Below, one piece after another: positions 27,351 to 42,905 of a stretch of 64,000 bases of DNA. Position numbers and translations under genes: made by a program. Source of the DNA: Desulfobulbaceae bacterium (GTDB taxonomy: Bacteria; Desulfobacterota; Desulfobulbia; Desulfobulbales; Desulfocapsaceae); contig WBUQ01000008.1 of the NCBI GenBank assembly GCA_008933635.1, forward strand, positions 1 to 64,000, written 5' to 3'. Under the pieces are notes generated by a model that did no database searches, was not told the origin of the DNA, and saw nothing but the letters and a program-made list of their open reading frames with translations. Numbering within the stretch: position 1 is the first letter of the stretch; each line of letters begins with the position of its first letter.

Positions 27351-30300
27351 TTACATGTTGCGGCGGTAGCGGCCGCCGACTTCGTAAAGGGCGCCCGTGA
27401 TCTGGCCGAGGCTGCAGTGCCGGACGGTCTGCATCAGCTGGGCGAAGATGTTGCCGCCGTCAAGCGCGGTCTTCTGCAACCTGCGCAGCTCCGCCGCGGA
27501 TTCATCCCGGTGGAGCTGGTGGAACCGGGCGAGCCGGCGCAGCTGATCGTCCTTCTCCTCGTCGGAGGCCCTGGCCAGCTCGAGTCGGGCGTTTTCCTCG
27601 TCGAAGTTGGCATCCGGGTTGCGGAAGGTGTTGACCCCGATGATCGGATACTGGCCGGAGTGTTTCAGGGCTTCGTAGTACAGCGATTCCTCCTGGATCT
27701 TGCTGCGCTGGTAGCCGGTCTCCATCGCCCCCAGGACGCCGCCGCGTTCGGTGATCCGGTCGAACTCGGCCATCACCGCTTCCTCGACCAGGTCGGTCAG
27801 CTCTTCGACGATGAAGCTGCCCTGGTTCATGTTCTCGTTCTTCGCCAGGCCCCATTCCCGGTTGATGATCAGCTGGATCGCCAGGGCCCTGCGCACCGAT
27901 TCGGCGCTCGGGGTGGTGATCGCCTCGTCGTAGGCGTTGGTGTGCAGGCTGTTGCAGTTGTCGTAGATGGCGCAGAGGGCCTGGAGGGTCGTGCGGATAT
28001 CGTTGAACTGGATCTCCTGACTGTGCAGCGAGCGCCCTGAGGTCTGGATGTGGTACTTCAGCCGCTGGCCGCCTTCTGACGCCCCGTATTTCTCCCGCAT
28101 CGCCACCGCCCAGATCCGCCTGGCCACCCGGCCGATGACGGTATACTCGGGTTCCATGCCGTTCGAGAAGAAGAAGGAGAGGTTGGGGGCGATCTGGTCG
28201 ATATGCATGCCGCGGGCCAGGTAGTACTCGACATAAGTGAAGCCGTTGGACAGGGTCAGCGCCAGCTGGGTGATGGGGTTGGCGCCGGCCTCTGCAATAT
28301 GGTAGCCGGACACCGATACCGAGTAGAAATTCCTGACGTTGTTCTCTATGAAGAACTCCTGGATGTCGCCCATCATCTTCAGCGCGAAATCGATCGAGAA
28401 GATGCAGGTGTTCTGACCCTGGTCCTCCTTCAGGATATCCGCCTGGACAGTACCGCGGACGTTGCTGAGGACGGTGGCGCGGATCTGGCTGATTTCGTCG
28501 TCGTCCGGCTGGCGGCCGCGCTCGTGGGTGAAATGGTCGATCTGCTGGTCGATGGCGGTGTTCATGAACATCGCCAGAATGATCGGTGCCGGGCCGTTGA
28601 TCGTCATCGATACCGAGGTCGTGGGAGAGCAGAGGTCGAAGCCGTCATAGAGCAGCTTGACGTCGTCGAGGGTGCAGATGCTGACCCCGGAGGTGCCGAT
28701 CTTGCCGTAGATATCGGGACGGACGTCCGGATCCCAGCCGTACAGGGTCACCGAGTCGAAGGCGGTCGACAGGCGTTTGGCCGGGTAATTCGCCGAGAGC
28801 AGCTTGAAGCGCTGGTTGGTCTGCAGCGGACCGCCCTCGCCGGCGAACATCCGGGTCGGGTCCTCGTTCGTCCGTTTCAGCGGGAAGACGCCGCCGGTGA
28901 AGGGGAAACAGCCGGGCAGGTTTTCTTTCCGCAGCCAGGTGTAGATGTCGCCCGGATCCTGAAATTTCGGCAGGGATATCTTTGGGATACGCGTATGGGA
29001 GAGTGATTCGGTAAAGAGCGGCACCCGCAGTTCGTTGCCCCTGACGGTATAGACATACTCGTCGCCGGAATAGGCCTTCTGGACGACAGGCCAGGATTGA
29101 ACCAGCTGCAGGGTCTCGGGACTGAGGCCTGTCGAGACTGCCTCGGCCTTGCTTTTCAGCTCGGCTACCAGCACCGCGGCTGTCTCACCGCCTGTTTCAC
29201 CGAACAGTCCGGCGCTCTCGAGCAGATGCCAGCGACAGCGGACCTTGTCTGCCTGCTCGCCCGTCTCCCGGTGATAGCGCCTGATCGCCTCGGTGATCTC
29301 CGAGAGGTAACGGATCCGCTCCGGCGGGATGACGATGGCCTTCGAAGAAGAGGTCTTGCCGGCAGGCTTGGGCAGCGACGGCTTCAGGCCGCAACCGGTC
29401 TTGCTGTTGAGCAGCTCGATGATGCCGTGGTACAGGGCTGTCACCCCGTCGTCGTTGAATTTCGAGGCGATGGTGCCGTAAACCGGAAATTCCTCCGGCC
29501 TGGTGGAGAAGGCCTTGCGGTTGCGCTGTACCTGTTTTCTGATGTCGCGGATGGCATCGTCGCTGCCCTTCTTCTCGAACTTGTTGACGACGATGATGTC
29601 GGCGTAGTCGAGCATGTCGATCTTCTCAAGCTGCGAAGGGGCGCCGTATTCGCTGGTCATCACGTAGATCGAGAGGTCGGCGAGATCGGTGATCTTCGAG
29701 TCCCCCTGGCCGATGCCGGCGGTCTCGACGATGATCAGGTCGAAATCGGCCGCCTTGGCGACCATGATCGCCTCGGGCAGGGCCTCGGAGATCTCGGAAG
29801 AGGATTCCCGGGTGGCCATGCTGCGCATATAGACGCGTGTGGAGGTGGCGATCGAGTTCATCCGGATCCTGTCGCCGAGCAGGGCTCCGCCGGTCTTGCG
29901 GCGCGAGGGGTCGCAGCAGATCACGGCGATCGTCAGGTCTTCCATGTCGTGGAGGAAGCGGAGGATGATTTCGTCGGTCAGCGAGGATTTGCCGGCACCG
30001 CCGGTGCCGGTGATGCCGATGACCGGAGGTCTGTGCTTTTCAGCCAGCGGCCGGATGCGGTCGATCAGGCCTTCGAACCCGTCCGTTTCACCTGCTTTCA
30101 CCTGCTGAACGGCGGTGATGAAGCCGGCGATGCCCATTCTGTCGGCGTTGTGCAGGTTTTCAACGTTCAGGTCGTGGTAAGGCAGGGTCGAGAAATCGAG
30201 GTGTTCGATCATATGGTTGATCATCCCCTGCAGGCCCATGGAGGCGCCGTCTTCAGGAGAATAGATCTTCGTCACGCCGTAGGCCTCCAGTTCCCTGATT

Positions 30301-30629
30301 TCGTCTGCGACGATGACCCCGCCGCCGCCGCCGAAGACCTTGATGTGGGACGCCTTCTTCTCTCGCAGGAGGTCGATCATGTATTTGAAGGACTCCATAT
30401 GTCCCCCCTGGTAACTCGACATCGCGATGCCCTGGGCATCTTCCTCGATCGCGGTATCGACGAGTTCCTGGACCGACCGGTTGTGGGCGAGGTGGATGAC
30501 CTCGACGCCGGAATCCTGCAGGATTCTCCGCATGATATTGGTGGAGACGTCGTGGCCGTCGAATAGCGAGGTGGCGGTGATGACCCTGATGTTGTTTTTC
30601 AGTTTCGAGGGGGTGGTCTCGGTACTCAT
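27351..30629 (-). CDS. icmF: Fused isobutyryl-CoA mutase IcmF (B12-dependent)
   Basis: Protein of 1092 aa with the IcmF order: an N-terminal B12-binding domain (about 14-145; DGHDVS with His26 as cobalt ligand, [17 protein letters not shown]), a MeaB/ArgK-type G-protein chaperone (about 200-420; P-loop [12 protein letters not shown] at 205-216, NKFEKKG as base motif), and a C-terminal acyl-CoA mutase TIM barrel (about 540-1092; [23 protein letters not shown]). IcmF interconverts isobutyryl-CoA and n-butyryl-CoA, and some members also act on pivalyl/isovaleryl-CoA. Good AGGAG ribosome site. It lies downstream of a TetR gene, acyl-CoA dehydrogenase and acyl-CoA synthetase, and ends at its own terminator. 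Confidence 0.95.
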
Positions 30630-30782: not shown

Positions 30783-31430
30783 TCAACCTTTCTTCTTATC
30801 CAGGAAACACATTATAAATTCAGTTTGTTGCTCGATATACTGGTCAATGGTGAAGTATTTGGCGAAGTACCACCGCCGGAATGCCCAGGTGTGGCCGAGG
30901 ACCGAGATGTTATGGCTCATCAGGTTGATCGTCGCGTCATCCAGGTGGGGCAGCTTGCCGGTGCGCTTGAGTTCGGTCAGTGCCTCGACGAACAGGCCGG
31001 TGATCCGCATTTCTGCCTCGAGCACCTTTTTCTGCCATTTCTCCGGCAGAAAATGGGTGACCTGGTACATCAGCAGGACGTGGTCGCTCATCCGGTTGCA
31101 GACCATGAAATGCTCCCGGATGATATTGGCCAGCGCCTCCCGGCCCTGGAGGGACTTGGCCAGGACTTCTTTCAGGCCCTGTTCGACTTCCGAATGGATG
31201 GCGATGCAGACCAGGTAGAGAACATCGTCTTTGGTCGTCACATATTCGTAGAGTGAACCGATGGACAGACCTGTCGCCTTGGCCAGCGCCCGGGTGGTCG
31301 TCTTGTGGTAGCCGCGCTGGATGAACAGCTGCACGGCGGCATCGACGATCTGTCTTCTCCGTTCCCTGACCAGTTCCTTGTTTTTTATCTGGGTCTCGAT
31401 CTCCCGTGAATCGTCTCTTTCTATTTCCAT
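30783..31430 (-). CDS. TetR/AcrR-family transcriptional regulator
   Basis: Protein of 215 aa with a TetR N-terminal helix-turn-helix (RRRQIVDAAVQLFIQRGYHKTTTRALAKATGLSIGSLYEYVTTKDDVLY, about 24-72) and a helical ligand domain (about 80-215). Similar regulators control fatty-acid degradation genes and are released by acyl-CoA. Flanked by icmF and the acyl-CoA dehydrogenase on the same strand. The four palindromes in 34808-35205 are its most likely targets (inference); no copy was seen just before the tetR gene itself. Confidence 0.9.
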   Translation of the reverse strand: MEIERDDSREIETQIKNKELVRERRRQIVDAAVQLFIQRGYHKTTTRALAKATGLSIGSLYEYVTTKDDVLYLVCIAIHSEVEQGLKEVLAKSLQGREALANIIREHFMVCNRMSDHVLLMYQVTHFLPEKWQKKVLEAEMRITGLFVEALTELKRTGKLPHLDDATINLMSHNISVLGHTWAFRRWYFAKYFTIDQYIEQQTEFIMCFLDKKKG

Positions 31431-31636: not shown

Positions 31637-32782
31637 TTACCTGGTCAGTGCAGTGCCGATGACCAGGCGCTGGATTTCGCTTGTTCCCTCGTAGATCTCG
31701 GTGATCTTGGCATCCCGCATCATACGTTCTACCGGAAATTCACGGGTATAACCGTAGCCGCCGAAGATCTGCACCGCCTGGGTCGTAACCCGCATTGCCG
31801 TCTCGCTGGCAAAGAGCTTCGCCATGGCCGAATCGGTGGAGTAGGGGAGTCCGGCGCTTGCGCGGTATGCAGCCTTGTAGACCAGGAGCCTCGCCGCCTC
31901 GACCTGGGTGGCCATGTCGGCGAGTTGAAACTGCACGCCCTGGAACCTGGCGATGGGCGAATCGAACTGTCTGCGTTCCCTAGCATAGGCAACCGAGGCG
32001 TCCAGGGCCCCCTGGGCGATGCCGAGGGCCTGAGAGGCGATGCCGATGCGGCCGCCGTCCAGTGTCTTCATCGCGATCTTGAACCCCTTGCCGGCCTCGC
32101 CGAGCATGTTTTCCGCAGGAATCCGGCAGTTGTCGAAGATCAGCTCGAGGGTGGGCGAGGAGCGGATGCCCAGTTTCTTTTCCTTCTTGCCGAAGGAGAA
32201 GCCTGGCGTGCCTTTTTCGACAATAAAGGCGCTGATTCCATGGTGTTTCTCGGCATCCTTGTCGGTCCGGGCGAAAACGACATAGGTGTCGCCCTCGCCG
32301 GCGTTGGTGATGAAGATCTTGGTGCCGTTGACGACCCAGTCGCTGCCGTCGCGAACGGCGGTCGTTCTTGTGCCCCCGGCATCGGAGCCTGCCGAGGGCT
32401 CGGTCAGGCCGAAGGCGCCGAGTTTCTCCCCCTGGGCCATCGGCTTCAGGAACCGCTGTTTCTGTTCCTCTGTGCCGAACAGGAAAATGGGATTCGATCC
32501 GAGTGAAATGTGGGCCGAGAGCGTCACCCCGGTGGAGGCGCAGACGCGGGAGAGTTCCTCGACGGCGATGGCATAGCTGAGATAGTCGGCTCCGCCGCCG
32601 CCATACTGCTCGGGGAAGATGATGCCGGTTAGACCGAGCTCGGCGAGGCGGCCGAACATCAGGTCACGATCAAAGTGTTCCTCTTCGTCCCGTATCCCCG
32701 CGGAGGGTCCGACTTCCTTTTCGGCAAATTCGCGGACCATGTCACGGATCAGATTCTGTTCTTCGGTCAGGGCAAAATGCAT
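31637..32782 (-). CDS. Acyl-CoA dehydrogenase (short/medium-chain type)
   Basis: FAD flavoprotein of 381 aa. Motifs: [21 protein letters not shown] (FAD/substrate contact), [71 protein letters not shown] with the catalytic Glu365. Glu at this position is typical of short- and medium-chain enzymes. It should oxidise butyryl-CoA or a similar acyl-CoA to the 2-enoyl-CoA, passing electrons to ETF. It lies downstream of the synthetase gene on one strand. A paralogue is at 41748-42905. Confidence 0.93.
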
Positions 32783-32964: not shown

Positions 32965-34731
<1,767 letters not shown>

Positions 34732-34807
34732 AGAATAACTCCTTATTTTTTAAATTAATGGAAAGCTGGAGGGAGTGTAGCAGCTCCTCCGGTGGTTGAC
34801 TGTTGCA

Positions 34808-34821
34808 ACCGAGCGCTCGGT
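34808..34821. promoter_or_regulatory. Putative TetR operator, copy 1
   Basis: ACCGAGCGCTCGGT, a perfect 14-bp palindrome 77-90 bp before the synthetase start. It is the most symmetric of the four copies. Confidence 0.6.
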
Positions 34822-34843
34822 CGGCAAAACGACCATATTGTCT

Positions 34844-34857
34844 ATCGAGCGCTCGCT
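34844..34857. promoter_or_regulatory. Putative TetR operator, copy 2
   Basis: ATCGAGCGCTCGCT; the core CGAGCGCTCG is a perfect 10-bp palindrome. Centre-to-centre distance to copy 1 is 36 bp. A second overlapping inverted repeat, CGAGCG-CT-CGCTCG, spans 34846-34859. Confidence 0.55.
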
Positions 34858-35102
34858 CGGACACAAAAAAGCTTAAGTCGACTTCGTTCTTTTTGTCAAA
34901 ATATTTTTTTGACCGGAAAAGAATTGAGAGCCCGTTTGGTGCTGTTCCCATGCCTCGTCTACACTATGGATGTCCACTGGAGGATGCGTATTCTGGCGTT
35001 TCTTTGCCGGATTGGTTGTCAGGAATCATCAGAAGAGAAAAGCGTCTGATTCAAGAAAAATGATTGACAAATACAGAGCAGGGGGGAATCATCGCACAAA
35101 TG

Positions 35103-35116
35103 ATTGAGCGCTTGTT
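35103..35116. promoter_or_regulatory. Putative TetR operator, copy 3
   Basis: ATTGAGCGCTTGTT followed by CGG; one half-site is degenerate. It lies about 34 bp past a TTGACA at 35064. Confidence 0.45.
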
Positions 35117-35191
35117 CGGCAATCATGCAAATCATGTTACTCACATTATTCATCTTATAACCAGGAGGAAATAAAAAACATTTCAAAATTG

Positions 35192-35205
35192 ACTGAGCGC
35201 TCGGA
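35192..35205. promoter_or_regulatory. Putative TetR operator, copy 4
   Basis: ACTGAGCGCTCGGA with a perfect GAGCGCTC core, 141 bp before the membrane protein start; overlaps a TTGACT at 35189-35194. Confidence 0.55.
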
Positions 35206-35345
35206 CGCAACGGCATGACCCCCAAAAAAACTGAGTTACAGAAGCACGATCATCGCGGGGACAAACAGGTATCGGGACGTTTACCTGATTGGACCCCCAG
35301 GCCTGAAGCGAAGTATCTACTCACGTTTTCAACAAGGAGGAGTGT

Positions 35346-36659
35346 ATGGCCGCAGGAGAATTGAAGCCGAGATGGGGGCAACCCCTGACCGGTATAATCT
35401 CGTTTGGAGTGTTTTTCGGTATAGCCTGGATTCTCTGGTATCTGCTCAGCGATCCCCGAGGACCAGTGCACGCTTTCCCGTATCCGTTCGTCCTGTACCT
35501 CGCCATGATGATCCTCGTCGGTCTCTGGCAGCACATGTTTCTCGGCGACTGGCCGTTTCAGGATATCCCCCAGCCTGCAAGGGGCGTCATCGAGACAATT
35601 GTCAATCTGGCCCTAGTCTGGTTCGTCATTCACGTCGTTTTCTACCGAATTTTCGGCCTGGGTTTCAATTTCCTCAGCCAGAGCAACCTGGAAGCGCTCG
35701 CCGGCAGCGGTTCGTATATCGCCCAGTTCAAGGATGCGGCAGGAGCGGTTGCCACCTGCGGCAAGGAACTCAACCTCGAGAAGCTCGTCGCCGGCGCCGC
35801 CCGTTATGGCGAACGGGCTGTCGTCTGCTTTGTCTTGATCGGCTTCTTCAGCTACCCGTTCATCACCATCCTGTTCGGCAAATGGCCGGTCAGGCCGAGT
35901 GACCTCAAGCAGCCGGCGGCAGGACTTGCCGAATTCGGCTGGGCGTCCCTGTGGACCCTGATATTCTACTCTGTCCTGATCGTCCCGTTCTGGGGGATGA
36001 TCTACGGCAAGGTGTTCGGCACCTCCATCGGCATGAACTTCCCCTGGTGGGGCGATATCGCCGGAACACCGCATGTGCACTGGGTATTCGGCTGGTGGGA
36101 GTGGATGATCGTCGTCCTCTTCATGACGCCGAACGTCTGGCGGATGAAGCCCTGGTCTGCAATCAACCTGCCGCAGCCGCTGAAGGGCCTGGTCTCCTTT
36201 CTGATCATCTTTGTCCTCGGCTACCTCATCGCCACGCTCTGCGTCAAACTGGCGCCCGCCTGGCTGCCCGACATGACCGCCGCACTGGAGCACAACAACA
36301 AGGACAGCCTGATGCGGTTCCTGTGGTACCATGCCGCCGAGATCGCCGGCTTCACCCTGATCCCCTTCCTTGTCTGGCACCATTATTTCGACGACATGGT
36401 GCCGATGCAGGACAAGGACTCATGGAACGCATTCTGGTTCAGGACGTTGGGCGTACTTTTCTTCTGTGTGCTCAACTACATCTTTTTCTACTACATCAAT
36501 TTCGGCCACTGGGGCCTTGGCAATCACCACATGGCGCATGACGTTGCCGACAGGATCCTCCACGGCGAGTCGCTGATCTGGAATTTCTGGTGGATCATTC
36601 CGTTGCTGTGGAATGAGTGGTTCTTCCACAAATGGCCGTTCTATACCCATGAGCACTGA
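35346..36659 (+). CDS. Polytopic membrane protein with repeated QPxxG/WP units, His- and Trp-rich
   Basis: Not recognised; 437 aa with about ten hydrophobic helices. A short motif Q-P-x-x-G opens four helices at residues 12-16, 76-80, 189-193 and 277-281, and WP or KPW motifs precede the next unit at 69-70, 180-181, 268-270 and 430-431, so the protein seems built from diverged repeats of two helices. The C-terminal third is rich in His (345, 346, 388, 394, 395, 398, 406, 428, 435, 437) and Trp, suggesting metal or haem/quinone contact. Strong AGGAGG ribosome site. It is the first gene of the plus-strand acyl-CoA operon; uptake of a short-chain acid or electron transfer to the quinone pool are both possible, neither shown. 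Confidence 0.8.
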   Translation: MAAGELKPRWGQPLTGIISFGVFFGIAWILWYLLSDPRGPVHAFPYPFVLYLAMMILVGLWQHMFLGDWPFQDIPQPARGVIETIVNLALVWFVIHVVFYRIFGLGFNFLSQSNLEALAGSGSYIAQFKDAAGAVATCGKELNLEKLVAGAARYGERAVVCFVLIGFFSYPFITILFGKWPVRPSDLKQPAAGLAEFGWASLWTLIFYSVLIVPFWGMIYGKVFGTSIGMNFPWWGDIAGTPHVHWVFGWWEWMIVVLFMTPNVWRMKPWSAINLPQPLKGLVSFLIIFVLGYLIATLCVKLAPAWLPDMTAALEHNNKDSLMRFLWYHAAEIAGFTLIPFLVWHHYFDDMVPMQDKDSWNAFWFRTLGVLFFCVLNYIFFYYINFGHWGLGNHHMAHDVADRILHGESLIWNFWWIIPLLWNEWFFHKWPFYTHEH

Positions 36660-36777: not shown

Positions 36778-36801
36778 GTGTGAACAGAGATGAGGAACAG
36801 T

Positions 36802-37977
36802 ATGAGAAAAGCAGTCATTGTCAGCGCAGTCCGCACTCCTCTTGGAAATTTCGGCGGGACATTGAGCACTGTCGGCGCAACCGATCTTGGCGCCCACGTC
36901 ATCCGTGAGGCCGTCAGAAGGGCGGGTATCGATGGAAAGCATGTCGATGAGTGCATCATGGGCATGGTCCTTCCCTGCGGCTATGGACAGAACCCCGGGA
37001 AGCAGGCAGCGATCAAGGCCGGCCTGCCCCAGGAGGTCGAGGCCATCACGGTCAACAAGGTCTGCGGTTCCTCGCTCAAGGCAGTGATGCTTGCCGCCCA
37101 GGCCGTGCAGTGCGGCGACGCCGATGTGGTCGTCGCAGGTGGGATGGAGAACATGAGCATGGCCCCCTATTACATGGACAAGGCCCGATGGGGTCTGCGG
37201 ATGGGGCCGGGAAAAATTGAGGACCACATGGTCCACGACGGCCTGTGGGATGTCGTCAACGACTTCCACATGGGTATGTCGAATGAACTGATCTGCGACA
37301 AATGGCAGGTCAACCGGGAAGACCAGGACCGTTTTGCCGCCGAATCCTACCGCCGGGCGCGATCTGCCTGCGAGGGCGGCGTGTTTGACGAGGAGATCGC
37401 ACCGGTCCCGGTGCCGGCCAAAAAGGGCGAAGTCACGCTCTTTGCCCGTGATGAATGTCCGGTCGAGACACCCTACGAGACACTGGCGAAGATGCGGCCC
37501 GTTTTCCGGAAAGATGGCGTCGGCACCGCCGGCAACGCCTCGATCATCAGCGATGGTGCTGCCGCACTGGTGGTGATGAGCCGGGACAAGGCCGATCAGC
37601 TCGGCTGCAAGGTGATGGCCGAGATCGGTGCCCAGGCCTCGGCCGGCATCGAACTCAGGTATGTCCTGATGGCCCCGATCCTGGCCATTCCCAAGGTTCT
37701 GAAAAAGCAGGGCATCAGTATCGGCGATATCGATATCTTCGAGATCAACGAGGCCTTCAGCGGGACTTCGGTCGCCATCAACCGGGTGCTGGAACTCGAT
37801 GGCACAAGGGTCAACGTCAACGGCGGCAGTGTCGCCCTCGGACACCCGATCGGCGCCAGCGGCGCCCGGGTCCTGACCACGCTGCTGTATCAGATGCAGC
37901 GGCAGGATGCCAGAACCGGTCTGGCCTCGCTCTGCCTTGGCGGCGGAGAGGCTGTTGCCCTGGTGGTCACGCGTTAA
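36802..37977 (+). CDS. Acetyl-CoA acetyltransferase (thiolase)
   Basis: Thiolase of 391 aa with catalytic Cys88 (NKVCGSSLKA), His348 (GHPIGASGAR) and Cys378 (CLGGGEA), full length. It should cleave acetoacetyl-CoA to two acetyl-CoA, or the reverse. The ATG at 36802 is preferred for its GAGGAA site 6 nt upstream; an ATG at 36790 is in frame. It is followed at 52 bp by 3-hydroxyacyl-CoA dehydrogenase. Two GC-rich hairpins lie in its leader. Confidence 0.94.
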   Translation: MRKAVIVSAVRTPLGNFGGTLSTVGATDLGAHVIREAVRRAGIDGKHVDECIMGMVLPCGYGQNPGKQAAIKAGLPQEVEAITVNKVCGSSLKAVMLAAQAVQCGDADVVVAGGMENMSMAPYYMDKARWGLRMGPGKIEDHMVHDGLWDVVNDFHMGMSNELICDKWQVNREDQDRFAAESYRRARSACEGGVFDEEIAPVPVPAKKGEVTLFARDECPVETPYETLAKMRPVFRKDGVGTAGNASIISDGAAALVVMSRDKADQLGCKVMAEIGAQASAGIELRYVLMAPILAIPKVLKKQGISIGDIDIFEINEAFSGTSVAINRVLELDGTRVNVNGGSVALGHPIGASGARVLTTLLYQMQRQDARTGLASLCLGGGEAVALVVTR

Positions 37978-38029: not shown

Positions 38030-38878
38030 ATGGATATCAGGACATTCGGGGTGATCGGCGCAGGCCAGATGGGAAACGGCATCGCCCAGGTGGCGGCTGC
38101 CAGCGGACTGCAGGTGCTGATGAGCGACATCAAGGAGGAGTTCACCGCCCGGGGACTCGCCGCCATCACCAAAAATCTCGACCGCGGTGTCGAAAAGGGA
38201 AAGCTGGACAAAGCCGATCGCGACGCCATCCTGGGAAGGATCAGGACCACCACCGACCTGCAGGACATGCAGGCGGCGGACTATGTCGTTGAGGCAGCTG
38301 TCGAGCGCGAGGATCTGAAGTTCAAGATTTTCCGCGACCTCGATGCCATTTGTCCGCCGTCGGTGATCCTGGCGTCGAACACCTCATCGATCCCGATCGG
38401 CCGGATTGCCGCCCAGACCGGCAGGCCCGGCAAGGTCATCGGCATGCACTTCATGAATCCGGTGCCGGTGATGAAACTGGTCGAGGTGATCCGGGCCCTG
38501 GCGACTTCCCAGGAGACCTTTGACGTCACCTGGCAGCTCTGTCTGAAATTCGGCAAGACGCCGGCGGAGGCCAACGACTTCCCGGGATTCATCGCCAACC
38601 GGATCCTGATGCCGATGATCAACGAGGCGGTATTCTGCCTTTACCAGGGGGTCGGCAAGGCAGAGGACATCGACACGGTCATGAAGCTGGGGATGAATCA
38701 CCCGCTCGGGCCGCTGGCCCTGGCCGACCTTATCGGCCTCGACACCTGTCTGGCGATCATGGAGACCCTCTTCGACGGGTTCAAGGATCCGAAATACCGA
38801 CCCTGTCCGCTTTTGAGGAAATATGTCGAGGCCGGCTGGCTGGGCAGAAAAACCGGGAGGGGATTTTTCAGCTACTGA
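38030..38878 (+). CDS. 3-hydroxybutyryl-CoA dehydrogenase
   Basis: Protein of 282 aa, the length of the stand-alone (Hbd/PaaH) form. NAD-binding motif [17 protein letters not shown] (6-22), active-site segment [16 protein letters not shown] with the catalytic His, [12 protein letters not shown] and [15 protein letters not shown]. It oxidises (S)-3-hydroxybutyryl-CoA to acetoacetyl-CoA with NAD, just before the thiolase step encoded upstream. AGAGGAA ribosome site. Confidence 0.94.
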
Positions 38879-38918: not shown

Positions 38919-40124
38919 ATGGATGCATATTGCCTGGTAACGCCGCCGGAGGAGCTGCGTGAACGGATAGCGGGACTGCAGCAGTCTCTGCGGCAGAGGG
39001 AACTCGATGGGGCACTGATCGTCCAGAAAACCGACCTGTTCTATTTTGCCGCAACGGCCCAGCAGGGTTGGCTGTATGTCCCGGCGGCCGGCGAACCACT
39101 GTTGATGGTCTTCAAGGAATTTGAGCGGGCGCGGAGCGAATCGGCTCTGGCCAACGTCGTTTCCATCGCCAGCCCGAAGAAAATCACCCAGGCCATCGGG
39201 GAAGCCGGTCTGCCGCAGCCGGCGAAAGTCGGCATGGAACTCGATGTCCTGCCGACCAATCTCTATTTCCAGTACGCCGATATTTTCAAGGGCGCCAGCG
39301 TCGTCGACGTGTCGACCGAGATCCGTTTGCTCAGGGCGGTCAAATCCCCCTACGAGATCGGGCTGATCCGGCAGGCTGCCGCCTGTTCGGATGCCGTCGC
39401 CGCCAGGATGCCAGATCTGCTGCGGGAGGGGAAGACGGAGGTGGAGCTGGCAGGTGAACTCGAGGCCTATGCCAGGAGCCTCGGCCACCAGGGAATCGTC
39501 AGGATGCGATTGTGGGGCAGCGAGTTGTTCTATGGCCATCTGATGGCCGGCCCGTCAGCTGCCGTCCCGAGCTATCTCGCCTCGCCCACCGGCGGCAGCG
39601 GGGTCAGTCCGCTGATCGGGCAGGGGGCCGGCTTCAGGAAAATTGCCAGAAACGAGCCTGTCCTTCTCGATTATGTCTTCGCCCTCAATGGGTATATCTC
39701 AGACCATGCGCGGATTTTCGTCATCGGTACCCTCCCTGACGAACTGTTGCGGGCCCATGCGGCGATGCTCGAAATCCAGGAAGAGGTGAAACGGCTGGCC
39801 GTGCCTGGTGCGGTGAGCGGCGAGATCTACGACCAGATGGTCGCTTCCGCGGAACGGAAAGGGTATGGCGAGTGGTTCATGGGGGTTGGCGATCGCCGGA
39901 TCAGGTTCACCGGACACGGCGTCGGCCTGGAACTGGACGAGTTTCCCTTTCTCGCCAAGGGGCAGCGGCTCGAGCTGGCCGAAGGCATGATCATTGCCCT
40001 GGAGCCCAAGGTCATCTTCCCCGGCAAAGGGGTGGTCGGGATCGAGAACACCATGCTGGTTACGGCAAACGGTCTGGAACCGCTGACCAGAATATCTGAC
40101 GATATCACCATGCTGGCAGGGTGA
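38919..40124 (+). CDS. M24-family Xaa-Pro peptidase-like metalloenzyme
   Basis: Protein of 401 aa with an N-terminal creatinase-like domain (about 1-150) and a C-terminal pita-bread domain. All five metal ligands can be placed: Asp251, Asp262, His333 (TGHGVGLEL), Glu362 and Glu376, so it should be an active dinuclear aminopeptidase P/prolidase-type enzyme. Its place inside a beta-oxidation operon is unexplained; creatinase-like relatives act on C-N bonds other than peptides, so a non-peptide substrate is possible. Confidence 0.88.
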   Translation: MDAYCLVTPPEELRERIAGLQQSLRQRELDGALIVQKTDLFYFAATAQQGWLYVPAAGEPLLMVFKEFERARSESALANVVSIASPKKITQAIGEAGLPQPAKVGMELDVLPTNLYFQYADIFKGASVVDVSTEIRLLRAVKSPYEIGLIRQAAACSDAVAARMPDLLREGKTEVELAGELEAYARSLGHQGIVRMRLWGSELFYGHLMAGPSAAVPSYLASPTGGSGVSPLIGQGAGFRKIARNEPVLLDYVFALNGYISDHARIFVIGTLPDELLRAHAAMLEIQEEVKRLAVPGAVSGEIYDQMVASAERKGYGEWFMGVGDRRIRFTGHGVGLELDEFPFLAKGQRLELAEGMIIALEPKVIFPGKGVVGIENTMLVTANGLEPLTRISDDITMLAG

Positions 40125-40147
40125 TTCGCCGCAACAAGGAGAAGGTT

Positions 40148-40894
40148 ATGCTGAAAGACGCCACCAACCCGGCCGAATTGTCCAGGGAGGATACCGCCCG
40201 CTTCATCATCGATCTCTTCCACCGCACGATCATCCATCATGCCCTCTGGTTCGGCGAGGTCAGGCACCAGATGGGGATGGAGAGGGCGCTGGAGTTCCTG
40301 CACCAGGCAACCAGGAGCAGCTATGGCGTGCAGATGAAGCATCTGTCCCAGCTCCTCGGGTTTACGATGGAGGATGGCATCCCCGGACCTCTTCTGGCGA
40401 TGGATGAGCATGCACTCGCCGCATTGCGGGACCGGGTCGCCAAGAACTGGCTCGCCGGCGACGGGATATGGTTCCAGACGATTGAAAAAACGGAGGGACT
40501 GAACGAGGCCAAGCGCTGCAACGATTCCTGCTGGGCCCATTTTTCCCCCTTCGAGGCGTCCTCGATCAAAAAATTGCTCGATCTTCCTGAAAATCCTGGC
40601 CTTCAGGGATTGAAACGGGCGTTGGCCTTTCGTGTCTATGGCCTCGTCAACGAACAGTCATTCAGTGACGAGACGGAAAACAGTTTCGTCTTCCAGATGA
40701 ACGACTGCCGGGTCCAGAGCGCCAGGAAAAGAAAGGGACTGGCCGATTATCCCTGTAAATCTGCTGGCCTGGTAGAATACAGTTACTTTGCCAGGGCCAT
40801 CGATAAGCGCGTCTCGACGGAATGCATCGGCTGTCCGCCGGACAGCCACCCGGAAGAATGGTTCTGCGCCTGGAAATTTTCACTGGCCGGGTAG
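40148..40894 (+). CDS. Cys-containing cytosolic protein, DUF6125-like
   Basis: Protein of 248 aa without signal peptide or membrane helix. The N-terminal half is helical (ARFIIDLFHRTIIHHALWFGEVRHQMG), and the C-terminal half has conserved-looking Cys: RCNDSCWAH, MNDCRVQSARKRKGLADYPCKSAGLVEYSYFARAID, STECIGCPPDSHPEEWFCAW. The pattern resembles DUF6125 proteins of sulfate reducers; function unknown, metal or cluster binding likely. The ATG at 40148 has an AAGGAGAAGG site. It is embedded in the acyl-CoA operon between the M24 peptidase and enoyl-CoA hydratase genes. Confidence 0.75.
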   Translation: MLKDATNPAELSREDTARFIIDLFHRTIIHHALWFGEVRHQMGMERALEFLHQATRSSYGVQMKHLSQLLGFTMEDGIPGPLLAMDEHALAALRDRVAKNWLAGDGIWFQTIEKTEGLNEAKRCNDSCWAHFSPFEASSIKKLLDLPENPGLQGLKRALAFRVYGLVNEQSFSDETENSFVFQMNDCRVQSARKRKGLADYPCKSAGLVEYSYFARAIDKRVSTECIGCPPDSHPEEWFCAWKFSLAG

Positions 40895-40955: not shown

Positions 40956-41744
40956 ATGGAGTACAGCAATATCCTGTGTGAAAAAGACGGTCCACTGGCC
41001 ACGGTGACCATCAACCGACCGAAGGTCCTCAACGCCCTCAATTACGAGACCCTCCAGGAACTCAAACACTGCTTCGAGACGATCGCCGGGGATCGGTCGA
41101 CCCGGGTCGTCATCCTGACCGGGGCCGGTGAAAAATCCTTTGTCGCCGGGGCCGATATCTCGTTCATGCGGGAATTGAATCCGCTCGAGGCCCGTACCTT
41201 CGCCACCCTCGGCCAGGAGGTGATGAACACCATCGAGGGAATCGACACCCCGGTGATTGCCGCGGTCAACGGGTTCGCCCTGGGTGGAGGTTGCGAGCTG
41301 GCCCTGGCCTGCGACATCCGTATCGCCAGTGAAAATGCCCGATTTGGACAGCCGGAGGTCAATCTCGGCGTCGTTCCCGGTTTCGGAGGTACGCAGCGGC
41401 TGCCCCGCCTGGTTGGCAAAGGACATGCCTGCGAGCTGCTCTTTTCCGGCGATATCATCGATGCCGCCGAAGCCGCACGGATCGGCCTGGTCAACCGGGT
41501 AGTGCCGCAGGATCAGCTGCTCGAATCCTGCCGGCAACTGGCCGGCCGGATCTGCCTGCGCGGTCCGGTTGCGGTAAGGCTGTGCAAGGATGCGGTTAAC
41601 AACGGCCTGGAAATGGATCTTGCCAGGGCCTGCCGCTACGAGGCCGACCTCTTTGCGATGTGCTTCGCGAGCACACAGCAGCAGGAGGGCATGTCCGCCT
41701 TTCTGGAAAAGCGCCAACCAAAGTTCGAAAGCGAGAAGGACTGA
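40956..41744 (+). CDS. Enoyl-CoA hydratase (crotonase)
   Basis: Crotonase-fold protein of 262 aa. Oxyanion-hole segment GEKSFVAGADISFM, then NGFALGGGCELALACDIRIASENARFGQPEVNLGVVPGFGGTQRLPR, with both catalytic Glu (in GGCELAL and GQPEVNLG) present. It hydrates crotonyl-CoA to 3-hydroxybutyryl-CoA. TTAGGAG ribosome site. The next gene starts 4 nt after its stop. Confidence 0.94.
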   Translation: MEYSNILCEKDGPLATVTINRPKVLNALNYETLQELKHCFETIAGDRSTRVVILTGAGEKSFVAGADISFMRELNPLEARTFATLGQEVMNTIEGIDTPVIAAVNGFALGGGCELALACDIRIASENARFGQPEVNLGVVPGFGGTQRLPRLVGKGHACELLFSGDIIDAAEAARIGLVNRVVPQDQLLESCRQLAGRICLRGPVAVRLCKDAVNNGLEMDLARACRYEADLFAMCFASTQQQEGMSAFLEKRQPKFESEKD

Positions 41745-41747
41745 GCG

Positions 41748-42905
41748 ATGAATCTCGATCTGACCGAAGAACAGAAACTGATCCAGGACACGGCCCGTGA
41801 TTTCGCCCAGGCCGAACTGGCGCCGGTTGCCGCCGACCTCGACCGGAGTGAAGACAATCCGGCATTTTTCGCCAATCTCAGGAAGCTGGCGGAGCTCGGC
41901 TTCATGGGGCTCAATATCCGTGACGAATACGGTGGCGCCGAGGCCGGAACGATCGCCTTCAGTGTCGCCATCACCGAGATCGCCAGGGCCTGTGCCTCGA
42001 CCGCGGTCACCGTCTCGGTCAACAACATGGTCAACGAGGTGATCCAGGCACTGGGCACAGAAGAGCAGAAGAAGAAGTATATTCCGATGATCTGCAGCGG
42101 CGAGAGCCTCGCCGGGGCCTTCGGCCTGACGGAGACCGGGGCTGGCTCGGACCCTGCCGGGATGGCGACCACCGCCGTTCTCGACGGCGACCAGTGGGTG
42201 TTGAACGGCTCAAAGATCTTCATCACCAGCGCCCCCTATGCCGGTGTTTTCGTGGTCTGGGCGGTCACCGACCAGAAGGCGCCGAAGGGCAAGGGGATCA
42301 GCCTGTTCCTGGTGGAGGCCGGAACCAGGGGGCTGGTGATCGGCAAGAAAGAGGAGAAGATGGGGCAGCATGCCTCGTCCACCAACGAAATTCTCTTCGA
42401 AGACTGCCGTATCCCGAAAGATGCCCTGATGGGCCGGCTCAACGACGGCTTCAGGGTGGCCGTCGCCGAACTTGGCGGTGGCCGCATCGGGATCGGTTCT
42501 CTCGGTCTCGGAGTCGGTCTTGCGGCGATGGATTTCGCCACCAGATACTCCCTCGAACGGGTCCAGTTCGGCAGGAAGATATCCGAATTCCAGGCGATCC
42601 AGTGGAAGATAGCCGATATCTACACCGAGCTGGAGGCCGCCAGACTGCTGCTGATGAACGCGGCCTTTCGCAAGGAGCAGGGGCGATCCTTCGCCAAGGA
42701 AGCGTCGATGGCCAAGGTCTATGCGACCGAGGCTGCCAATCATGCCTGTTACGAGGCGATGCAGATCCTTGGCGGCTACGGCTACACCAGGGACTATCCG
42801 ATCGAACGACTGGCTCGCGACGCCAGGATCACCACGATCTATGAGGGCACCAGCGAGATCCAGCGGCTGATCATCTCGCGCGAGATCCTGCGCGAGCTCG
42901 CATGA
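41748..42905 (+). CDS. Acyl-CoA dehydrogenase (butyryl-CoA type)
   Basis: Protein of 385 aa. AGAFGLTETGAGSDPAGMATTA, FITSAPYAGVFVVWAVTD, ERVQFGRKISEFQAIQWKIADI and [34 protein letters not shown] with catalytic Glu366. It directly follows the crotonase gene, the arrangement common in butyryl-CoA dehydrogenase operons. No etfA/etfB lies beside it, so its electron acceptor flavoprotein is encoded elsewhere. It is diverged from the paralogue at 31637-32782, so the two may differ in acyl specificity (for example straight versus branched). Confidence 0.94.
   Translation: MNLDLTEEQKLIQDTARDFAQAELAPVAADLDRSEDNPAFFANLRKLAELGFMGLNIRDEYGGAEAGTIAFSVAITEIARACASTAVTVSVNNMVNEVIQALGTEEQKKKYIPMICSGESLAGAFGLTETGAGSDPAGMATTAVLDGDQWVLNGSKIFITSAPYAGVFVVWAVTDQKAPKGKGISLFLVEAGTRGLVIGKKEEKMGQHASSTNEILFEDCRIPKDALMGRLNDGFRVAVAELGGGRIGIGSLGLGVGLAAMDFATRYSLERVQFGRKISEFQAIQWKIADIYTELEAARLLLMNAAFRKEQGRSFAKEASMAKVYATEAANHACYEAMQILGGYGYTRDYPIERLARDARITTIYEGTSEIQRLIISREILRELA

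Follow-up and report, generated by a model that had tools for sequence, protein, structure and literature searches.

A membrane protein family of Desulfobacterota with five predicted helical hairpins, encoded beside acyl-CoA genes, is a candidate carrier for short and branched carboxylic acids

The window analyzed here, the first 64,000 nucleotides of contig WBUQ01000008.1 from a Desulfobulbaceae bacterium, contains an uninterrupted 437-residue reading frame on the plus strand at 35346-36659, a real and conserved gene whose frame, strand and length match those given in an initial annotation. That annotation also placed the gene first in its operon, with the best ribosome site there. AGGAGG lies 5 nt ahead of the ATG, and this is the first plus-strand gene ahead of thiolase and further beta-oxidation genes. 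The annotated start agrees with the conserved N-terminus in the family alignment. A gap of 130 bp without a convincing terminator leads to the thiolase gene, and a 614-bp gap parts the membrane-protein gene from a divergent synthetase unit on the minus strand. The main features of the locus are:

27351-30629, minus strand: IcmF, fused isobutyryl-CoA mutase/GTPase (NF045497, 1864 bits, over the cut-off of 1500)
30783-31430, minus strand: TetR-family regulator, from profiles, candidate owner of the operators described below
31637-32782, minus strand: acyl-CoA dehydrogenase (related models below equivalog cut-offs)
32965-34731, minus strand: divergent AMP-binding acyl-CoA synthetase, from profiles (best NCBIfam model MbcS, below cut-off)
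35335-35340, plus strand: ribosome-binding site AGGAGG, read from the sequence
35346-36659, plus strand: five-hairpin (10-helix) membrane protein of 437 aa, founder of the family, defined by the reading frame, its relatives and structure models
36790-37977, plus strand: thiolase (TIGR01930, over cut-off)
38030-38878, plus strand: 3-hydroxybutyryl-CoA dehydrogenase (NF004474, over cut-off)
40956-41744, plus strand: short-chain enoyl-CoA hydratase (NF004475, 383.5 bits, just below the cut-off of 394)
41748-42905, plus strand: second acyl-CoA dehydrogenase (best model below equivalog cut-off)

By these profile matches, we read these genes together as a putative isobutyrate/butyrate oxidation locus. 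Two other genes lie inside the putative beta-oxidation operon. One, at 38919-40124, encodes a 401-aa Xaa-Pro peptidase/creatinase look-alike, recognized by eye with no NCBIfam match at threshold, and keeps its position in at least five relatives. The other, at 40121-40894, encodes a DUF6125 protein (242.9 bits), and a similar gene is likewise placed in loci L004 and L055.

Scanning 84,980 species genomes returned 90 relatives at 56-87% identity, from which 79 distinct loci were retained. Relatives with a title narrower than "bacterium" or "proteobacterium" all belong to Deltaproteobacteria/Desulfobacterota, and most are sulfate reducers and syntrophs. The distribution is patchy among near relatives (present in 8 of 38 searched), and no family matches were found on plasmids. 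Some genomes carry two family copies (L005 and L073; L040 and L063; L034 and L075; G021), one of the two often stand-alone yet bearing the operator (L063, L075). A phylum-wide profile search yielded three further groups, B, C and D, in addition to the founder's family, group A.

The protein had been called unrecognized, and this description holds. Searches of Pfam (query and 62 members) and NCBIfam gave nothing above cut-off, a PHROGs search assigned no family, and the PDB searched with the family profile gave no convincing sequence match. A clear match to a known transporter or cytochrome family, named in the initial annotation as evidence that would count against it, was sought in Pfam, NCBIfam and the PDB and not found. 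Several weak candidates were rejected. Abhydrolase_9_N (PF15420) scored 23.6 bits, below its gathering cut-off of 27, was found in 9 of 62 members at E<=0.1 and is not followed by a hydrolase domain; acylphosphatase matches are attributed to chance (E >0.01, limited to the region around residues 94-158). One match of the phylum search, L111, is spurious, and an apparently split gene, G018, is a single frame aligned in two pieces. This is a real, new and widespread membrane family in Desulfobacterota.

The motifs reported for the protein are present where they were placed, with QPxxG at residues 12, 76, 189 and 277, WP at 69, 180 and 430, and KPW at 268. Shuffled sequences contained a mean of 0.044 QPxxG each and a maximum of two (20,000 shuffles), and the four positions retain the motif in 62, 58, 62 and 62 of 62 aligned family members, so that it is invariant at three of the four. 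Trp makes up 30 of the 437 residues, in line with the report of many Trp, and the last third holds 12 His rather than the ten reported. An AlphaFold model built with the family alignment (pLDDT 80.4, pTM 0.79) contains ten long helices arranged as five hairpins, 14-34/46-66, 78-106/154-176, 191-224/245-263, 279-306/319-347 and 360-383/409-426, and a second family member gave a model with identical helix layout (pLDDT 79.8, pTM 0.80). Hairpins 1-4 of the model each begin with QPxxG, as expected from the earlier proposal that this motif opens a helix, and the WP-type motifs sit in the loops between hairpins. The units, all on the plus strand, are:

35379-35564: repeat unit 1, residues 12-73, running from QPxxG to WP (motifs, helices 14-34/46-66)
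35571-35894: repeat unit 2, residues 76-183, with a loop insertion near 107-153 (helices, unit profiles, motifs)
35910-36161: repeat unit 3, residues 189-272 (helices, unit profiles, motifs)
36174-36395: repeat unit 4, residues 277-350, carrying H329xxE332 (helices, conservation)
36414-36656: repeat unit 5, residues 357-437, with the opening QPxxG lost, carrying R366, Y378 and Y382 (helices, conservation)

To compare units with one another, profiles were made from groups A, B (for the B/C homologues) and D, with reversed profiles as controls. At a threshold of 21.1, the 99th percentile of 210 reversed controls, 7 of 30 within-group pairs and 14 of 60 out-of-register between-group pairs scored above threshold, and the best pairs begin at equivalent unit positions. 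A whole-chain self-comparison with hhalign was too weak by itself to establish repeats. Taken together, the motifs, the modeled helix layout and the unit-profile matches give good support to an internal duplication of a two-helix unit. The duplication proposed in the initial annotation thus stands, and its count of four units becomes five.

Neither model matched a fold in the PDB by Foldseek (best E 0.22 and 0.44, TM-scores <0.3). By the charge rule, Lys and Arg on the two loop sides amount to 8.3 in 76 cytoplasmic residues versus 5.2 in 115, which predicts an N-in topology with helix 8 running from outside inwards. Mitochondrial carriers, which are built from three two-helix units, offer an architectural likeness, as they also combine tandem two-helix units that each contain a conserved Pro motif. 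The two families differ in having three versus five units and in the carrier signature versus QPxxG/WP, and the mitochondrial carrier repeat profile gave no Pfam match and no fold match to the five hairpins. If the protein is a carrier, its five-hairpin layout would be an unusual architecture.

Groups B and C, with proteins of about 410-470 aa, are homologous to group A along the full length, aligning over 405 columns with an E-value of 8.4e-36, and group B has an additional C-terminal helix relative to A. H329 is invariant in 62 group A and 15 B/C members and is the sole His shared by all three groups. One turn along helix 8, E332 occurs in every A member and in 13 of 15 B/C members, and R366, Y378 and Y382 are conserved in A and in most of B/C. 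The B/C proteins differ from A in having an extra HxH in helix 5 and a distinct partner, a Tat-signal metallo-beta-lactamase (MBL)-fold gene that adjoins them in all 16 of 16 loci read (L142-L157, for example L150 4021-6514). From this exported partner, a catabolic or transport setting seems plausible for B/C. We found no description of this B/C and MBL-fold pair, a two-gene system in Desulfobacterota.

Group D proteins (~363 aa) have five canonical QP/HPxxG ... (W/Y)P hairpins and lack H329, E332 and R366. Profile comparison gave 77% probability over 79 columns for A versus D and 47% for B versus D. Because the A versus D match is shifted by three units, kinship of D to A is considered probable, short of proof of common descent along the whole chain. 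Four of five group D loci also encode PEP-utilising proteins resembling phenylphosphate synthase, the alpha and beta subunits of phenylphosphate carboxylase, or both, and the carboxylase subunits score over their equivalog cut-offs. Such clusters correspond to an anaerobic phenol pathway. Within this set of phenol-degradation clusters (L160-L164), L160 also contains a UPF0261 (Tm-1-like) gene.

Co-occurrence with acyl-CoA synthetase genes, suggested earlier as a check, is evident across the relatives. A homology screen, used here in place of annotation, showed that 53 of 79 loci have an acyl-CoA ligase or CoA-transferase no more than 3 kb away and that 62 have some acyl-CoA enzyme in that range; these counts overstate significance, since loci from related species are not independent. 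The remaining 17 loci, some on short contigs, have no acyl-CoA gene within that distance. Coverage stands at 43-52% inside 2 kb and declines to about 14-16% by 6-8 kb. A ligase lies close upstream on the same strand at 18 loci, and a ligase or CoA-transferase close downstream at 29. The partners differ among relatives, and include ligases, type I and III CoA-transferases, methylmalonyl-CoA mutase and full beta-oxidation sets.

The divergent gap of the window holds four copies of a rare palindrome, GAYYGAGCGCTYRGTC, imperfect to varying degree:

34807-34822: putative TetR-type operator 1, AACCGAGCGCTCGGTC, from sequence search
34843-34858: putative TetR-type operator 2, TATCGAGCGCTCGCTC, one mismatch, from sequence search
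35102-35117: putative TetR-type operator 3, GATTGAGCGCTTGTTC, from sequence search and an aligned site in relatives
35191-35206: putative TetR-type operator 4, GACTGAGCGCTCGGAC, from sequence search and an aligned site in relatives

Its core, GAGCGCTYG, is found 39 times in the 60 kb of sequence upstream of members versus 23 times in 978 kb elsewhere, a 28-fold difference. Of the 23 sites elsewhere, at least seven precede the gene by about 1.9-2.0 kb and stand in front of a transcription unit headed by a ligase. The operator is found upstream of the gene at 19 of 79 loci and ahead of a preceding ligase in at least seven further loci. Eight of the 19 belong to the 17 copies without acyl-CoA neighbors; the site at L039 is weak and GC-rich, and the other seven are convincing (L006, L008, L053, L059, L063, L067, L075). 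The whole host genome contains five exact matches to RAYYGAGCGCTYGNNC, three of them at the window locus, a fourth beside an AMP-binding acyl-CoA synthetase (L171) and a fifth beside a gene pair for a branched-chain-type aminotransferase and a 2-oxoacid:ferredoxin oxidoreductase subunit (L167). Because the operator is spread across member loci and these host-genome sites, the gene is apparently part of a small regulon that serves the use of short and branched acyl-CoAs. The position of the neighboring TetR-family protein suggests that it binds these operators.

With regard to function, the initial annotation offered two possible roles, short-chain acid uptake and a membrane step in electron transfer to quinone. 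The neighbors, the operator and the absence of two known carrier families favor the first. SCFA_trans (AtoE) and Gpr1_Fun34_YaaH (SatP) are absent from the host genome, in searches that were positive in control genomes, and the single weak SSF match is a 527-aa frame beside a sensor kinase with no Pfam match at 0.001. This search covered three known carrier families, AtoE, SatP and SSF. With AtoE and SatP absent and the SSF match weak, this gene is the best-placed carboxylate-carrier candidate at the locus. SatP/YaaH (PF01184), AtoE (PF02667) and ActP (SSF, PF00474) would share with it the proposed uptake of short carboxylates beside activation genes. These families otherwise differ from it, as none of the three profiles matched the query or 62 members and neither model matched the fold of any PDB carrier. 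The contexts of B/C and D involve different chemistries and would have in common a need for substrate entry, which we count in favor of uptake. We therefore consider it reasonably likely, from gene context, that the protein belongs to a new family of secondary carriers that take up short and branched carboxylic acids, here most likely isobutyrate or butyrate.

Because the fold matches no known transporter, the mechanism is read from context, and we infer from it transport itself, its direction, substrate, coupling ion and active residues, as well as the pairing with the TetR protein. The five two-helix units would pack into a bundle of ten helices, whose WP/QPxxG loops probably face the cytoplasm. 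H329xxE332 in the middle of the membrane on helix 8, together with R366 early in helix 9, would be the best candidate site for a proton and carboxylate. This arrangement is reminiscent of H+ coupling in LacY, where His and Glu are likewise three residues apart in one helix and an Arg takes part; the resemblance is offered as an analogy, with no homology found. The carrier would import the acid, and the divergent acyl-CoA synthetase would then trap it in the cytoplasm as a thioester. IcmF could then turn isobutyryl-CoA into butyryl-CoA, which the downstream enzymes would oxidize. The TetR protein probably represses expression through the GAYYGAGCGCTYRGTC sites, and an acyl-CoA would lift this repression. 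Neutral short acids and phenol also diffuse across membranes, so such a carrier need not be essential. A gap of this kind has been noted in the sulfate reducer strain BzS1, for which the acetate importer is stated as unaccounted for (PMC13416013), and the passages on transport in PMC11887813 name no short-chain acid carrier. Neither a named carrier nor the operator sequence turned up in a search of the literature.

Among the alternatives, we consider it unlikely that the protein works in export or tolerance, expelling acids, acyl products or toxic phenols or protecting the membrane. Export would predict an identical gene neighborhood, stand-alone copies exist, and sequence cannot reveal direction. 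Against this, co-regulation with acid-activating ligases suits substrate use better than excretion, and complete or partial oxidizers have little cause to expel their substrate.

An integral-membrane metalloenzyme acting on the substrate is a slightly poorer prospect. H329xxE332, with its conservation across A and B/C, and an HxH near the periplasmic face could serve as metal ligands, as an HxH occurs at 243-245 in group A and in helix 5 of most B/C members. The HxH positions of A and B are not homologous, however, the probable group D has none, and the known enzymes of the window pathway leave no obvious step missing. We give equally little credence to a membrane sensor or a ligase-scaffolding partner that would help vectorial acylation: pairing with ligases is tight, but many members adjoin CoA-transferases, mutases or nothing instead, and the protein has no soluble signaling domain.

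The least likely reading is the other role offered at the outset, a membrane redox protein that moves electrons from acyl-CoA dehydrogenases to menaquinone. Acyl-CoA dehydrogenases are adjacent, the protein is rich in His and Trp, and six His are invariant inside group A (H63, H243, H329, H345, H346, H428). However, since only H329 persists in the proven homologues, a conserved transmembrane pair of His ligands of the cytochrome b type is absent across groups A, B and C, and by this comparison the His-rich tail is a subfamily trait rather than a cofactor signature of the superfamily. Redox proteins in the PDB did not match by sequence or fold, with alternative complex III and cytochrome bd appearing only at E >1 and TM <0.2. 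Electrons from acyl-CoA dehydrogenases usually reach menaquinone through ETF and an Fe-S/cytochrome-b oxidoreductase. The host genome encodes such a set elsewhere (L202 971-4776), with a canonical ETF pair, an acyl-CoA dehydrogenase and a 667-aa membrane oxidoreductase with Nitrate_red_gam, 4Fe-4S and two CCG domains, and this cluster is likely the quinone link of the host. In PMC11887813, too, catabolic modules are paired with ETF and ETF:quinone oxidoreductase. With that route already supplied, with the probable group D serving phenol carboxylation, which involves no such electrons, and with B/C partnered by an MBL-fold hydrolase-like gene, the electron-transfer role is disfavored. Overall, the observations of the initial annotation are confirmed and its interpretation is partly supported.

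In anoxic sediments and digesters, the oxidation of volatile fatty acids by syntrophs and sulfate reducers is one of the main routes for carbon, and to our knowledge most of the uptake routes of these organisms for such acids have yet to be assigned. A conserved and co-regulated membrane family without a known fold is a testable candidate for the carrier. More broadly, and more tentatively, these proteins may form an undescribed five-unit carrier superfamily, with a fold unlike solved structures, that feeds short and branched fatty acids to sulfate-reducing and syntrophic Desulfobacterota, and phenols or periplasmic MBL-fold products in its distant branches. It might thereby account for how volatile fatty acids enter the cells that oxidize them in anoxic sediments, a step so far missing, and if so, the family gene would be a marker for the acid-uptake trait.
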